From positions 1-34,018 of the forward strand of contig JAJPJM010000030.1 of assembly GCA_021324235.1 (NCBI GenBank): a DNA stretch of 34,018 nucleotides. The letters run 5' to 3'. Numbering within the stretch: position 1 is the stretch's first letter; every line of letters starts with the position of its first letter. Below are positions 9,399-19,292 of this stretch, one piece after another. The notes beneath the pieces were generated by a model, which saw only the letters and a program-made list of their open reading frames with translations, ran no database searches and had not been told where the DNA came from. Source of the stretch: Verrucomicrobiota bacterium. Lineage in GTDB: Bacteria > Verrucomicrobiota > Verrucomicrobiia > Limisphaerales > UBA11358. Both the position numbers and the translations under genes were made by a program.

Positions 9399-10685
9399 AT
9401 GAATCTCACGGAACAAATCACGCAACTGGCCAAACAGGCCCGGGCCGCGTCGCGCGAACTTGCGAAACTGACCGCCCGTGAGAAGAACGATTGTTTGCTG
9501 GCCATGGCCGACGCGCTCGAGAAAAATTCCGATGCGCTCAAGGAAGCCAATACGCGGGACATGGACGCAGCGGCGGAAAATGGCTTGTCCCCGGCCATGC
9601 TGGACCGGCTGAAGCTGGATGACAAGCGGGTCGCGGCCATGGCCAAAGGCTTGCGTGAAGTCGCGGCGCTGCCCGACCCCGTCGGGAGAATCCTGGACGA
9701 ACGCGTCCGGCCGAATGGCTTGAAACTCCAAAAGATTTCCACGCCCATCGGCGTCGTCGTCATCATTTATGAATCCCGGCCCAACGTGACGGCGGACGCC
9801 GCCGGCCTTTGCTTCAAATCCGGCAGCGCCACGATTTTGCGCGGCGGCCGGGAGGCGATGAACTCGAACCAGTTCATCGCGAAAACGATGATTGAGGCGG
9901 GAAAAAAAACGCTCGCAAAATTTCCCGGGCACGGAATTCAGGTCGTCCCCGTGACCGACCGCGAGGCGATCCCGATTCTGCTTTCGCTCACGCAATACGT
10001 CGATTTGTGCATGCCGCGCGGTGGCGAAGGGCTGATTCGCGCCGTGGCCGAATGCTCCCGGGTGCCGGTCATCAAACATTACAAGGGCGTTTGTCACGTC
10101 TATGTGGACGCCGACGCGGATTTGAAGATGGCCGAGGAAATTGCCTTGAACGCAAAAGTCCAGCGCCCGGCGGTCTGCAATGCCATGGAGACCCTGCTCG
10201 TGGACAAAACCATCGCGGCGCGGTTTTTACCCGTCGTGGGCCAGCGACTCAGCGAAAAGAGGGTGGAGTTGCGCGCCGACGCTGATGCCGAAGCCATTTT
10301 GAAATGCTCGATCCACAACACCAAATCCGCCATCAAACGGGCGACCGAACAGGACTGGTTCACCGAATACAACGACTACATCCTGAACGTCCGCGTTGTG
10401 AATGGTGTGCAGCAGGCGATTGATCACATCAATCATTACGGCTCGGCGCACTCGGACAGCATCGTCACAAAAAATGAATTGCATGCGCGACAGTTCCTGA
10501 ACGAAGTGGATTCGGCGACGGTGTATTGGAACGCCTCGACGCGGTTCACTGACGGCGGCGAGTTCGGCATGGGCGCGGAAATCGGCATCAGCACCGATAA
10601 AATTGGCGCGCGCGGTCCAATGGGTCTGGAGGAATTGACCAGCTACAAATGGATCGGCATCGGCAACGGGCAGGTGCGAACCTGA
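9399..10685 (+). CDS. proA: Gamma-glutamyl phosphate reductase
   Basis: Second step of proline biosynthesis: NADPH-dependent reduction of gamma-glutamyl phosphate to glutamate semialdehyde (EC 1.2.1.41), in the cytoplasm. The 428-aa length is normal. Motifs seen are YESRPNVTADAAGLCFKSG near residue 125, ILRGGREAMNSN near 147 and the catalytic-cysteine region AVCNAMETLLVDK near 255. The C-terminus ends with GARGPMGLEELTSYKW, typical of ProA. proB is not in the window. The ATG at 9399 matches the family N-terminus. Confidence 0.95.
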   Translation: MNLTEQITQLAKQARAASRELAKLTAREKNDCLLAMADALEKNSDALKEANTRDMDAAAENGLSPAMLDRLKLDDKRVAAMAKGLREVAALPDPVGRILDERVRPNGLKLQKISTPIGVVVIIYESRPNVTADAAGLCFKSGSATILRGGREAMNSNQFIAKTMIEAGKKTLAKFPGHGIQVVPVTDREAIPILLSLTQYVDLCMPRGGEGLIRAVAECSRVPVIKHYKGVCHVYVDADADLKMAEEIALNAKVQRPAVCNAMETLLVDKTIAARFLPVVGQRLSEKRVELRADADAEAILKCSIHNTKSAIKRATEQDWFTEYNDYILNVRVVNGVQQAIDHINHYGSAHSDSIVTKNELHARQFLNEVDSATVYWNASTRFTDGGEFGMGAEIGISTDKIGARGPMGLEELTSYKWIGIGNGQVRT

Positions 10686-13158: not shown

Positions 13159-13296
13159 AGACCAATCGCCCCGCGAAACCGGGCCGACGGTCCGTCCTCG
13201 GGCACTGTCCCAATATGTAGGCGACGAGGTGACGAGTCGTTTGGACCGGCACTCGTGCCCTACCACCAAATCAGGCCTGCCTGTCCTCGTTCTATT

Positions 13297-14685
13297 TTGA
13301 CGCTGAACGTTTTGAAGCTTACTGTCTTCGGCGTGGATGCTGTCTCTTCCAACGAAAAATCCGCGGCGGACGTCGCGCATTTTATTCACGGGCAAACCCC
13401 GGTTGACGGGCTCTTTGCCGGACTGGACTGGCGGATTTCACCGGTACCGTTCCCGCTGGGTGACAGTCTGGCGAAGGATATCGAATCGCTGGGCCGCGTA
13501 TTGCTGCAGTTTTATCGCGCAGTCAACCTGCTCTATCGGCGCAGCGTGGAAGGCAAGCAACCGGCGTGGGTTGCCGAACTGCTGGACCGCGGCAAACCCG
13601 CAGAATTGATCGCGCAACAACGCTCACCCGCGTTCAAGAACGATGTGCCGCGCGTCATTCGGCCCGATATCTTATTGACGGAAACCGGCGTTAGCATCAC
13701 CGAACTGGATTCCGTGCCCGGCGGCATCGGCCTGACGGCATGGCTGAACGCAACTTACGCCGCCGCCGAAGGTCGGGAGTCGAAGGCTGAAAGCAAAATC
13801 ATCGGCGGCGCCGACGGCATGATTCGCGGGTTTGAGTCCATTTTTGGCGACACGCAACAGGTTCACATCGTGGTTTCCGAAGAAGCGGCGACGTACCGGC
13901 CGGAAATGGAATGGTTGGCAAGCCAGGTTCAAGGTTCAAGGTTCAAGGTTCAAGGTTCAAAGTTTGACGGTTTCGCCGACGGCGACGCGGTTTACCGTTT
14001 TTTTGAGCTGTTTGACCTCGCGAACGTTCCGAATTCCGGAAGAATCTTCGAACTGGCCGCGGAGAAACGAATCCGGCTGACCCCGCCGCCAAAGCCGCTG
14101 TTCGAAGAGAAAATGTTGTTCGCACTGTTATGGAACCGGAATTTGCGCGACTTCTGGCGGGCGGAACTGGGGGAAGGCTTTTTGTCGCGCCTGCAAAAAC
14201 TGATTCCCTACACGTGGGCGGTGGATCCGACACCACTGCCGCCGCACGCGGCGATTCCCGAACTGAATCTCACCGACTGGCAGCAGCTGAAAACGCTGTC
14301 GCAACGCCAGCGTGAATTGATTTTGAAGGTATCGGGTTTTTCCGAACACGCCTGGGGCGCGCGGGGCGTCTATCTGGGCAGCGACCTGTCGCACGCCGAT
14401 TGGAGCGCGGCGGTGGACCGGGCCCTGGCCGGTTTTTCCACCTCCCCGTTCGTGCTGCAGCGTTATGAAAAACCGAAAACCGTCGAAACCAGGTGGTTTG
14501 ATTTTCAGAAAAACACGGTCGAATCGATGAAGGGCCGGGTCCGGTTGTGCCCGTATTACTTCGTGGCCGGCGAAGGCGACGCGGCGCGCCCGCAATTAGG
14601 CGGTGCGTTGGCAACCATCGTTCCCGCTGATAAAAAGATTGTCCATGGTATGGCCGATGCGGTTCTGGTACCGTGTGTGGTTTAG
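13297..14685 (+). CDS. ATP-grasp-like protein of unknown function, upstream of the MtaB gene
   Basis: The predicted length is about 460 aa. I do not recognise a named family with certainty. Features suggesting a circularly permuted ATP-grasp fold are PDILLTETGVSITELDSVPGG near residue 125, KPLFEEKMLFALLWNRNL near 275, LKVSGFSEHAWGARGVYLG near 350, and FVLQRYEKPKTVETRWF followed by RVRLCPYYFV near the C-terminus. The start is unclear: TTG at 13297, GTG at 13333, or the tracked GTG at 13255 within repeat-like DNA; no ATG fits. Two heptanucleotide repeat tracts lie inside the coding region, encoding GRESKAESK and VQGSRFKVQGSKF. The next gene starts 36 bases downstream, which suggests an operon. 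Confidence 0.6.
   Translation: MTLNVLKLTVFGVDAVSSNEKSAADVAHFIHGQTPVDGLFAGLDWRISPVPFPLGDSLAKDIESLGRVLLQFYRAVNLLYRRSVEGKQPAWVAELLDRGKPAELIAQQRSPAFKNDVPRVIRPDILLTETGVSITELDSVPGGIGLTAWLNATYAAAEGRESKAESKIIGGADGMIRGFESIFGDTQQVHIVVSEEAATYRPEMEWLASQVQGSRFKVQGSKFDGFADGDAVYRFFELFDLANVPNSGRIFELAAEKRIRLTPPPKPLFEEKMLFALLWNRNLRDFWRAELGEGFLSRLQKLIPYTWAVDPTPLPPHAAIPELNLTDWQQLKTLSQRQRELILKVSGFSEHAWGARGVYLGSDLSHADWSAAVDRALAGFSTSPFVLQRYEKPKTVETRWFDFQKNTVESMKGRVRLCPYYFVAGEGDAARPQLGGALATIVPADKKIVHGMADAVLVPCVV
13772..13799. repeat. Degenerate heptad repeat inside the ATP-grasp-like gene
   Basis: GTCGGGA, GTCGAAG, GCTGAAA and GCAAAAT form four imperfect 7-base units encoding RESKAESKI, an unusually charged insertion compared with the flanking protein. 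Confidence 0.5.
13925..13959. repeat. Perfect heptad repeat AGGTTCA x5 inside the ATP-grasp-like gene
   Basis: Five perfect AGGTTCA units are followed by a decayed sixth (AAGTTTG), making 42 bases or 14 codons. They encode QVQGSRFKVQGSKF. Because the unit is not a multiple of three, gain or loss of one copy would frameshift the gene. Confidence 0.92.
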
Positions 14686-14721
14686 AGAGTTGCTCCGCTC
14701 TTCGGATGCAACCCCACTTTT

Positions 14722-16101
14722 ATGAACCGCTTTAATAAGCTGGCCATTGACCATCCGGCCGACCTGCGCTTCGGAATCGCCCCCAAACCGTTGACGACCC
14801 GGCAGGGCCTGAAACTGGGCGGCGGAATCGTCTATCCCGAATTAAACTTCACCCTGCCGCCCATGTTTGTGGATGAATCCACGATGCCGGAAGTGCGGGA
14901 GCAGTACCGAGGAATCATTCAGGGCGCCCTGGCCCGCGCGGCGGAACTGGAGGCGCCGGGATTGGTCGTCGAGTTTGAAACCCTGCCGCCGATGACCGAG
15001 CATCCGGCCTGGGGCATCGAGTTGACCCGCATTCTGCTCGACGGCATGGCGGAAGCGCACGCCCGGCACGGCCTCAAAAGCGTTTTGCGCATCACACCGA
15101 ACGACACGCGTGAAATGGAACGCCCGCCCCGGATGCGCAGCGGACCGTTGTTTGAGGCCATGCTGGCCACCTTTGACGGCTGCGCGGCCGCGGGTGCGGA
15201 GTTGTTGAGCATCGAATCGGTCGGCGGCAAGGAAATCCACGACGAGGCACTGATGATGGGCGATCTGCGCGGCGTCCTGTTCGGACTTTGCGTGATGGGC
15301 GTGCGCGACATGCGCTTCCTCTGGACTGAACTCCAACGCATCGCGGACAAACACGGAGTCCACTGCGCCGGCGACACCGCCTGTGGCTTCGGCAATACGG
15401 CGATGGTCCTGGCCGGGCAACAGATGATCCCGCGCGTCTTCGCGGCCGTGGTGCGGGCCATCAGCGCCGTGCGAACGCTCGTGGGTTACGAATGCGGTTG
15501 CGTCGGGCCCGGCAAGGATTGCGGTTACGAAAACCCGATTCTCAAGGCCATCACCGGTTTTCCGATGGCCATGGAAGGCAGGACCGCCGCCTGCGCGCAT
15601 TCGAGTCCGCTGGGCAACATTGCGGCCGCCGCGTGCGACACGTGGAGCAACGAATCCGTCCAGAACATCAAACTGCTCGGCGGCATGGCGCCGACGGTTT
15701 ACGTCGAGCAACTCATTTACGACTGTCGCGTAATGAACCAGGCGCTGGCGGACGGCCGCGACGCGGCCTTGCAGTATCGCAAATGGCTGGTGGCTTCCGA
15801 TGCGGCGCTCGATCCGCAAGCGTATGTGCTCACGCCGGAAAGCGCCGTGGCCATCGCCCGGGTCATCGTGAACGCGCCGAACCATTACGCCGCCGGCCGG
15901 GCCGCCGGCCTGACCGCCGTCAAATTGTTGCGCGACGCGCACCGGGACGGACAGGTCAAAATCCTCAAACGCGAATTGCCATGGCTGGAGCGGATGCAAA
16001 AAACGCTGGAAAGCCTGCCGGCCGGTGAAAACCAGTTCATCGACGAGATGATGGGCGTGGTGGATACCAGCAAGTTCGTCGCGGCCGATTACGAACTGTA
16101 A
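14722..16101 (+). CDS. mtaB: MtaB-type methanol:corrinoid methyltransferase
   Basis: MtaB enzymes transfer the methyl group of methanol to the cobalt of a partner corrinoid protein (EC 2.1.1.90). The 459-aa length is close to that of Methanosarcina MtaB. The three zinc ligands I recall from that enzyme (Glu164, Cys220, Cys269) have near-coincident candidates: Glu165 in LLSIESVGGKE, Cys221 in GDTACGFGNTA and Cys267 in GPGKDCGYENP. The corrinoid-protein gene follows 100 bases downstream in the same direction. No MtaA-type methyltransferase or RamA activator is in the window, so the final methyl acceptor is unknown. A different methylated substrate is possible despite the family match. Confidence 0.85.
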   Translation: MNRFNKLAIDHPADLRFGIAPKPLTTRQGLKLGGGIVYPELNFTLPPMFVDESTMPEVREQYRGIIQGALARAAELEAPGLVVEFETLPPMTEHPAWGIELTRILLDGMAEAHARHGLKSVLRITPNDTREMERPPRMRSGPLFEAMLATFDGCAAAGAELLSIESVGGKEIHDEALMMGDLRGVLFGLCVMGVRDMRFLWTELQRIADKHGVHCAGDTACGFGNTAMVLAGQQMIPRVFAAVVRAISAVRTLVGYECGCVGPGKDCGYENPILKAITGFPMAMEGRTAACAHSSPLGNIAAAACDTWSNESVQNIKLLGGMAPTVYVEQLIYDCRVMNQALADGRDAALQYRKWLVASDAALDPQAYVLTPESAVAIARVIVNAPNHYAAGRAAGLTAVKLLRDAHRDGQVKILKRELPWLERMQKTLESLPAGENQFIDEMMGVVDTSKFVAADYEL

Positions 16102-16201
16102 TCGCCAAAAAACGGCATGTTAAAACCAACCCTTGGTTGGCGATCGGGCCGCCGATGCGGTTTATTCAAATTGAACCAACATCACGTTTGAACCCCAGCC
16201 T

Positions 16202-16834
16202 ATGGACGACCATCAACCACTTTATGAAGCCATCCTGATCGGTGATGGCAAAGCCGCCCGGGCCGCCACCGAGCAGGCGCTGGCGGCCGGCATGGATCCC
16301 TTGAAACTTGTGCAGGATCATATGATGCGCGCCATGGCGGAGGTGGGGCGGCGTTTTGAGTGTCACGACTATTTCGTCCCGGAACTGCTGCTCGCCGCGC
16401 GCGCCATGAAAAGCGCCCTCGAACCCATCCGTCCGCTGCTCAAAAACCAAAGCATCGGACCGTCCGGATGCGTTCTCATCGGGACCGTCACGGGTGACCT
16501 GCATGATATCGGCAAGAACCTGGTGATCGCGATGCTGGAAGGTGCCGGTTTTGAGGTGGTGGACCTCGGAGTCAACGTGCCGCCGGGACAATTCGTCCAG
16601 AAAATCAAAGAAAAAAATCCTCACATCGTCGCCATGTCGGCCCTCCTGACCACCACCATGCCGGCCATGAAGACCACCATTGACGCCCTGAAACAAGCCG
16701 GGGTGCGCAATCAGGTAAAGATAATCGTTGGGGGCGCGCCGATTACGCAAAAATATGCCGATGAGATCGGCGCCGATGGCTACACCGAGACGGCTTCGGG
16801 CGCGGTGGCGCTGGCGCGCAAAGTCATGGCCTAA
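16202..16834 (+). CDS. mtaC: Corrinoid (B12-binding) methyltransferase partner protein, MtaC-like
   Basis: The product is 210 aa. Residues 1-85 form the helical cap domain (QDHMMRAMAEVGRRFECHDYFVPELLLAARAM). Residues of about 92-210 form the Rossmann-like B12 domain with the cobalt-ligand motif GDLHDIGKN (His in the DxHxxG pattern), LGVNVPPGQFV, MSALLTTTMPAMK and VGGAPITQKYADEIGADGY. Such proteins carry methyl groups on cobalt between two methyltransferases. Adjacency to the MtaB gene argues for methanol or a similar methyl donor, but sequence alone cannot separate MtaC from the MttC and MtbC types. No Shine-Dalgarno site precedes the ATG. Confidence 0.87.
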   Translation: MDDHQPLYEAILIGDGKAARAATEQALAAGMDPLKLVQDHMMRAMAEVGRRFECHDYFVPELLLAARAMKSALEPIRPLLKNQSIGPSGCVLIGTVTGDLHDIGKNLVIAMLEGAGFEVVDLGVNVPPGQFVQKIKEKNPHIVAMSALLTTTMPAMKTTIDALKQAGVRNQVKIIVGGAPITQKYADEIGADGYTETASGAVALARKVMA

Positions 16835-17868: not shown

Positions 17869-17943
17869 GCCAGCTTAGCTCAGTGGTAGAGCAACGGTTT
17901 TGTAAACCGTCGGTCGTCGGTTCAATCCCGACAGCTGGCTCCA
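17869..17943 (+). tRNA. tRNA-Thr (TGT anticodon), CCA encoded
   Basis: The cloverleaf reads directly: acceptor GCCAGCT pairs with AGCTGGC, the D arm is TAGCTCAGTGGTAGAGCA, and the anticodon stem ACGGT/ACCGT encloses TTTGTAA, giving the TGT anticodon (threonine, ACA codons). The T arm is GTCGGTTCAATCCCGAC. The discriminator is T and CCA is encoded at 17941-17943. The antisense strand yields the well-known spurious peptide GIEPTTDGLQNRCSTTELSW at the start of the 592-aa minus ORF, which confirms that ORF is not real. Confidence 0.97.
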
Positions 17944-18008
17944 CTCTTCATCGAGCTTGTCATTGCGCCGTCGGCCAATTTCGGAAACACTTCACCCGGA
18001 AGAATTCC

Positions 18009-19292
18009 ATGCCTCGCAAAACTTCAAAACGGTCGGGCCCGGTGGCGTCAGTCATGATTCTCGGGGTCGGCTCGTTCGCGCACAGCCTCGGGCAGGCGCT
18101 GGCAGATGCCGGTACCACCGTCTCCACGTATCTCACGCGCAATTACGGCCATTTCCCGCCGTCGCTCGTTGGGCCAACCTTCTCGCGCGACGCGTTTTCC
18201 AGCCCCGTTCCGCTCATCAAGAAAAATGGCGTGGAGGTGGTCATTCCGCAATCCATTGATTGGGCGCTCGCGCCGTGGGCGAAGGATTTGTTGAAATCCG
18301 GCGTCGGCATCTTCAGCCCCACGCGCGAGGCGATGCGAATCGAACGCGAACGGGATTTCGCCCGGAAACTGTGCGCAGATTTCAAAATCCCGTTTCCGCA
18401 GGCGTATGTGGCGTCGAACCGGCTGGAGGCCGAAAAAATCCTGGCCGGCCATCCGCAGCCGTTTGTCATCAAAAACCCGCTCTGCTCGCCGAACAGCCCG
18501 ATTCACACGATTTTGTGCGAAACCGTCGAGGACACCCGCGCGTGGTTGCGGCACGTCAATTATGCCGAGGGCGTCTTTTTGCAGGAATATCTCGGACGCG
18601 CCGAGGCCGGGCACATCGCGCTCGTGAGTGGCGGAGAGATTTATTCCCTGGTCACCAATCAGGAATATAAATACGCCTTCAACGGCAATCAGGGCATTGT
18701 GGCCGGGGCGCCGCTCGGCGGCCTGGTCGAACGCGATCCGGACGACCAATACAGCCTGGCCCGGCAGCTCATCCATCCGCTGTTGCCATGGCTGCGCAAA
18801 GTCAGATTCAACGGGCCGTTGCAAGTCACCGCTGTGAAGCGCGGCGGCCAATGGCACGTCATCGAATACAATATCCGCATCGGCGTCACGTCCGGTCCGA
18901 TGATTTTGCGGATGCTCAAAAACCCGGTGGAAACCGTTTTGAAAACCGCGCGCAATGAACAACTCGATCCACAGTTCAAGTCCGGACTGAATTTCGGCTG
19001 CTCGCTGACGCTGGCCGGTTACGGTTATCCGTTCACACAGGTCCGCAGTCCGCATCTGCCGCTGGAAGTGGCAGGCCCGTTCGATTGCGACGTGTGGTGG
19101 AACGAAGTGGCGCAGGGCACGGACGGCCAACTTGTCTCCACGGGCCATCGCATTGCCGATGTGATTGCGCTCGCGCCGGCATTGGATGCCGCGATTACAA
19201 GAGCCTACGCCAACATCCGCAAAATCCGGGTCGTGGGCAGCTATTTCCGCACGGACATTGGCCGAAGCCTGTGGCCGCCGGGCAGGATTTGA
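18009..19292 (+). CDS. PurD-like ATP-grasp protein (phosphoribosylamine-glycine ligase family)
   Basis: The product is 427 aa from the ATG at 18009, which has GGAAG six bases upstream; the tracked start lies inside the tRNA. An N-terminal Rossmann-like region begins VMILGVGSFAHSLGQALADAG. The ATP-grasp part includes PTREAMRIERERDFARKLC near residue 100, FPQAYVASNRLEAEKIL, PFVIKNPLC, VFLQEYLGRAEAGHIALV near 200 and EYNIRIGVTSGPMILRML near 290. The C-terminal part contains SLTLAGYGYP. This order matches PurD (EC 6.3.4.13), but several signature stretches differ: a classical GGDPE is replaced by NIRIGVTSG, and IGTDGPT-like motifs are absent. It may be a paralogue with another amine or acid substrate. 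Confidence 0.65.
   Translation: MPRKTSKRSGPVASVMILGVGSFAHSLGQALADAGTTVSTYLTRNYGHFPPSLVGPTFSRDAFSSPVPLIKKNGVEVVIPQSIDWALAPWAKDLLKSGVGIFSPTREAMRIERERDFARKLCADFKIPFPQAYVASNRLEAEKILAGHPQPFVIKNPLCSPNSPIHTILCETVEDTRAWLRHVNYAEGVFLQEYLGRAEAGHIALVSGGEIYSLVTNQEYKYAFNGNQGIVAGAPLGGLVERDPDDQYSLARQLIHPLLPWLRKVRFNGPLQVTAVKRGGQWHVIEYNIRIGVTSGPMILRMLKNPVETVLKTARNEQLDPQFKSGLNFGCSLTLAGYGYPFTQVRSPHLPLEVAGPFDCDVWWNEVAQGTDGQLVSTGHRIADVIALAPALDAAITRAYANIRKIRVVGSYFRTDIGRSLWPPGRI

Follow-up and report, generated by a model that had tools for sequence, protein, structure and literature searches.

A paired MtaB-like zinc enzyme and corrinoid protein in a verrucomicrobial genome, a probable methyl-transfer module with scattered partners

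Do an MtaB-like zinc enzyme, the corrinoid protein encoded behind it and the gene in front of it form one methyl-transfer operon, and what would such proteins do in a verrucomicrobial bacterium that looks like a plant-polysaccharide-degrading heterotroph? The question is raised by the window analysed here, the whole 34,018-base contig JAJPJM010000030.1 (G000:C4), which belongs to a 3.09-Mb bin of 185 contigs that is ~91% complete. We judge the unit to comprise two genes (14722-16834), mtaB and a corrinoid-protein gene, and read the pair as a substrate:corrinoid methyltransferase module, with methanol the most likely substrate, in a methyl-transfer system whose other parts are scattered over the genome. 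We give this reading a probability of roughly 0.62. The two genes are:

14722-16101, + strand: MtaB-like zinc methyltransferase (substrate:corrinoid methyltransferase, MT1), 459 amino acids, assigned from PF12176, structure 2i2x_A and the ligand columns
16202-16834, + strand: corrinoid (methyl-B12) carrier protein, 210 amino acids, assigned from Pfam, NCBIfam and PDB

The MtaB-like enzyme and its corrinoid partner

The open reading frame (ORF) at 14722-16101 is intact and matches PF12176 with 547 bits (gathering cut-off 25), over profile positions 2-460 of 460. M. barkeri MtaB (2i2x_A, 305 bits) is its sole relative in the PDB. The original prediction placed all three zinc ligands in this protein, and the alignment bears this out: predicted ligands E165, C221 and C267 align with E164, C220 and C269 of 2i2x, and these columns show no variation across the 92 rows used for ligand and conservation analysis. 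Against NF040651, the NCBIfam equivalog for the methanol-specific MtaB of methanogens, the window protein scores 423 bits, below the cut-off of 720.

The protein encoded at 16202-16834 combines a B12-binding_2 cap (PF02607) with a B12-binding Rossmann domain (PF02310). Its sequence reads GDLHDIGKN...SALL...GG, a motif of the DxHxxG...SxL...GG type, in agreement with the predicted B12 protein carrying DxHxxG. Its scores against the MtaC models NF040655 and NF040669 (123 and 125 bits) lie below the respective cut-offs of 420 and 450; the MtgC models give 180-209 bits (209 with corrin_MtgC_2), also below cut-off. MtgC, MtbC and pyl_corrinoid models all outscore the MtaC models, and the best PDB relative is 1y80. 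Judged by these profile scores, the window corrinoid protein resembles MtgC and MtbC more than MtaC.

The corrinoid gene begins 100 bases behind mtaB. Among 98 other mtaB loci (18 from the class and 80 named loci), 55 have a same-strand corrinoid gene within 1.5 kb of mtaB, upstream in 48 and downstream, as in the window, in 7. The nearest relatives of the window corrinoid protein, at L141 (73% identity) and L025 (70%), are each encoded 44-65 bp from their own mtaB. An activator accompanies the enzyme at the level of whole genomes. In a class sample of 286 genomes from 137 genera, which includes seven other genomes of the same genus, MtaB was detected in 19, and a RACo gene occurs in 19/19 of these vs 42/267 without MtaB (Fisher p = 1.4e-14); by genus, all 17 MtaB genera fall among the 47 RACo genera (p = 1.3e-9), deeper kinship being ignored in both p values. 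Pairing and activator co-occurrence uphold the predicted methyl-transfer pair in a polysaccharide-degrading heterotroph.

Genes that recur beside mtaB across several phyla encode a RACo/RamA-type activator, DUF1638, URO-D, a stand-alone homocysteine S-methyltransferase and AraC regulators, some of which carry a PocR sensor domain. PocR domains are predicted to sense small hydrocarbon derivatives. In the same-genus genome G284, a homologue of the window corrinoid protein (71%) lies ~260 bp from a RACo gene, which supports RACo as the functional partner type. G284 and G216, same-genus genomes in which mtaB was not detected, keep some components of the system at the ends of contigs (L241, with RACo and the 71% corrinoid homologue; L242, with a RACo fragment, a PocR-type AraC regulator, PurU and an S-methyltransferase).

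Candidate partners elsewhere in the genome

The cluster had been described as lacking MtaA and RamA, which holds for the 34-kb contig and fails for the genome. A genome-wide search for mtaA-, ramA-, metH- and acsE-like genes, suggested with the original prediction, was productive. Contig C66 encodes a RACo-type activator (RACo_C_ter, 238 bits; Raco_middle; Fer2) together with a homocysteine S-methyltransferase, a GH67 alpha-glucuronidase and PurU. Contig C98 (L099) carries a URO-D gene truncated at the contig end, another corrinoid protein, MTHFR and an AcsE/MtgD-like pterin methyltransferase; an MtaA/CmuA-family URO-D gene lies at the end of contig C99; MetH lies on contig C51, and pectinesterase domains were found on contigs C84 and C143. 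The C66 homocysteine S-methyltransferase, the C98 pterin methyltransferase and the C99 URO-D protein are MT2 candidates, none of them encoded next to the mtaB-corrinoid pair.

Some features of these contigs are recorded here in their own right. On C66 (L097:9893-15182), GH67 stands between the homocysteine S-methyltransferase gene, from which it is separated by 14 bases on the upstream side, and RACo, from which it diverges. The C98 corrinoid protein has a C-terminal 'Virulence_fact' domain (PF13769), and the C98 MTHFR has DUF5981. PF12225, a marker of the C98-type MTHFR, occurs in 31 of the 286 class genomes.

The upstream gene

Two further genes are needed for the question of the operon:

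13255-14685, + strand: uncharacterised proA-linked core protein of the class (earlier the 'ATP-grasp-like' gene), described from its distribution and neighbourhood
9399-10685, + strand: proA (gamma-glutamyl phosphate reductase family), context, from an Aldedh Pfam match

The original prediction joined the 13255-14685 gene to mtaB and the corrinoid gene in one operon, with an ATP-grasp protein conjugating or activating the substrate. The spacing was correctly described: the upstream ORF ends at 14685 and mtaB starts at 14722 on the same strand, leaving 36 bases, and no strong promoter or terminator match lies between them (the hairpin found in the gap is weak, its z being about -2 and its T run poor). 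The distribution of the gene speaks strongly against a shared operon. A protein search found homologues in 260 of the 286 class genomes, most of them without mtaB, including all seven same-genus genomes in which no mtaB was detected. At 20 fetched loci with such a homologue, proA was present in 16, mostly directly upstream of it; in the window the order is proA, a GH44 gene and then the 13255-14685 gene. Neither the upstream gene nor proA was found at any of the 98 other mtaB loci, so that the expected conserved neighbourhood with mtaBC did not materialise, and the arrangement in the window genome is mere adjacency.

The ATP-grasp label found no positive evidence. Neither the single protein nor a 21-sequence profile gave a match in Pfam, NCBIfam or PDB, and an hhalign comparison with CP_ATPgrasp_1, in which both profiles were shallow, was negative. 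A viral scan gave no homologues, and an AlphaFold model made without an alignment reached a pLDDT (model confidence score) of 35 and was unusable. The label is on these grounds unproven, and the idea of a substrate-conjugating or -activating enzyme finds no support. We therefore reject the upstream gene as a member of the unit on distribution and neighbourhood, judge it an unrelated proA-linked neighbour, and consider the three-gene operon very improbable.

The upstream protein belongs to a core family of the class that has no assigned function and no database family and carries motifs such as ELDSVPGGIGL and GR[VA]RLCPYYF. Its start is uncertain: homologues begin around 13333-13350, where the true start probably lies. 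Within the gene, GGTTCAA heptamers follow one another at 13924-13970 and are translated into a local repeat (QVQGSRFKVQGSKF). Near the mtaB pair, an ATP-grasp assignment is supported for one protein alone, the PurD-like product of 17883-19292 (GARS_A/GARS_C; below the purD equivalog cut-off). A tRNA-Thr gene (tgt) occupies 17869-17943; since the PurD-like ORF as called begins inside it, the true start of that gene lies further downstream.

Proposed route and substrate

We infer the following route, including its direction. The zinc enzyme would bind a small molecule that donates a methyl group, with methanol the likeliest, and activate the zinc-bound substrate oxygen; the MtgC-type corrinoid protein would take over the methyl group at its Co(I). 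From the resulting methyl-Co(III) the group would then go to an acceptor enzyme encoded elsewhere. This could be the stand-alone zinc homocysteine S-methyltransferase of C66, yielding methionine, or the AcsE/MtgD-like pterin methyltransferase of C98, yielding methyl-tetrahydrofolate for oxidation by the adjoining MTHFR. Cobalt that falls to Co(II) would be re-reduced by an ATP-dependent RACo/RamA-type activator, which may be the C66 protein or a cognate one that the bin lacks; with a metagenome-assembled genome (MAG) of this completeness in so many contigs, partner genes may be missing. Chemistry, the small-molecule sensor and the pectinesterases make methanol the likeliest substrate, and pectin methylesterases in the genome point to pectin as a possible source of it.

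Phylogeny leaves this assignment less than secure. A quick tree (IQ-TREE) sets 90 bacterial rows, that of the window among them, apart from 2i2x and L020. The branch in between measures 3.07 changes per column, a rough length since these two are the only rows of canonical type, and has 100% support in the SH-aLRT (approximate likelihood ratio) test. The bacterial clade takes in Verrucomicrobiota, Planctomycetota, Armatimonadota and others. Conservation in the bacterial set reaches 97% or more at 109 columns; 2i2x has the same residue at 83 of them and another at 26, several of these beside a zinc ligand. L020 (G141:C3), from one genome of the class, encodes an MtaB of canonical type, which has a corrinoid protein and a RACo of its own and falls outside the main verrucomicrobial clade.

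Several observations weigh against a methanol module served by the partners named above. Members of the bacterial clade are 36-41% identical to authentic (M. barkeri) MtaB and have invariant residues of their own around the zinc cysteine (GDTACGFGN vs GDTDCAQAN in 2i2x), and it is on these two grounds that methanol is not secure. Several of the closest mtaB relatives have no nearby corrinoid gene. DUF1638 was not found in the window genome. The C66 RACo shares ~30% identity with the type encoded beside mtaB. Its nearest homologues, in G264 (70%) and G015 (63%), sit with an S-methyltransferase and a URO-D gene; from this low identity and this context, the C66 RACo may serve a different corrinoid protein. 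PF12225 was detected in 4/19 MtaB genomes only, so the C98 module is not a general MtaB partner and is dismissed as a fixed one.

One alternative is that the clade takes its methyl group from an O-methyl compound other than methanol, for instance an O-methyl sugar or some methoxylated substance. The fully supported long branch, which separates the clade even from a verrucomicrobial protein of canonical type, the divergent conserved positions flanking a zinc ligand, the plant-polysaccharide-degrading hosts and the AraC-type regulators near mtaB would all suit such a substrate. However, the zinc site and most of the invariant residues shared with 2i2x are retained, and PocR domains, as sensors of the kind described above, fit methanol. 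One concrete form of the idea, 4-O-methylglucuronate, was drawn from the GH67 gene close to the C66 S-methyltransferase gene; GH67 is not beside the S-methyltransferase/RACo genes in G264 or G015, and this substrate was demoted. We regard a non-methanol specificity as a minority possibility, rather unlikely overall. Its more specific version, in which the cross-phylum clade acts on a non-methanol substrate (for example an O-methyl sugar) and passes the methyl group via the MtgC-type corrinoid protein directly to homocysteine, is unlikely. A little less probable still is that the pair is a relic, or feeds one-carbon units into some other corrinoid system, and has no acceptor or activator of its own in the genome. 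No RACo, acceptor or DUF1638 gene adjoins the pair, mtaB was not found in the seven same-genus genomes and the RACo of this genome is of another subtype, as a relic would have it, but neither ORF is damaged, no motif has been lost, and RACo and candidate acceptors do exist elsewhere in the genome. A methanol-directed module with scattered partners remains our preferred reading.

Significance

In a collection holding one genome per species, several hundred contigs carry the bacterial MtaB-like branch, which is annotated as methanol methyltransferase. We know of no tested member of this branch. If our reading is true, corrinoid-based methanol or methoxyl use reaches Verrucomicrobiota, Planctomycetota and Armatimonadota that are neither methanogens nor known acetogens; if the more specific non-methanol reading is true, ordinary heterotrophs would possess a cobalamin route from the methoxyl groups of plant polymers to methionine. 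Bacterial mtaB has been reported from MAG surveys (PMC11264602, PMC10805028), and a search of the open literature found no study of verrucomicrobial MtaB.

Comparison with known systems

With the MtaBC system of methanogens and acetogens (2i2x), the window pair shares the MtaB fold family, the Glu/Cys/Cys zinc site and a small corrinoid partner. It differs in its distance from that MtaB and its separate clade, in the MtgC/MtbC-like character of the corrinoid protein, in the lack of MtaA in the cluster, and in a host with the appearance of a polysaccharide degrader. The URO-D, corrinoid protein, pterin methyltransferase and MTHFR set of C98, together with PurU of C66, we take to resemble chloromethane utilisation (CmuA/CmuB/MetF/PurU) and O-demethylase systems. 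Unlike the window pair, C98 is a separate module of the same genome, and its methyl donor enzyme is not MtaB.

A modular layout of this kind is known from roseobacters. In Phaeobacter the methionine synthase is split and goes together with RamA-like and DUF1638 proteins (PMC5764234), and in Ruegeria MtgBCD, from aerobic bacteria, one corrinoid protein is common to glycine betaine demethylation and methionine synthesis (PMC12478193). Scattered modules, namely a donor methyltransferase, an MtgC-type corrinoid protein, a pterin methyltransferase, a homocysteine S-methyltransferase and a RamA-like activator, are features that the window genome has in common with the roseobacter MtgBCDE, RamA and DUF1638 system and the Phaeobacter split synthase, whereas DUF1638 is matched only in relatives of the window genome, a full MetH is also present, and the donor is an MtaB-type zinc protein rather than MtgB of the MttB superfamily. 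By analogy, the window system would be best seen as an MtgBCDE-like modular architecture with an MtaB-type donor in the place of MtgB. If this is true, the modularity of MtgBCDE, in which the donor enzyme is swapped, extends to an unrelated zinc enzyme.

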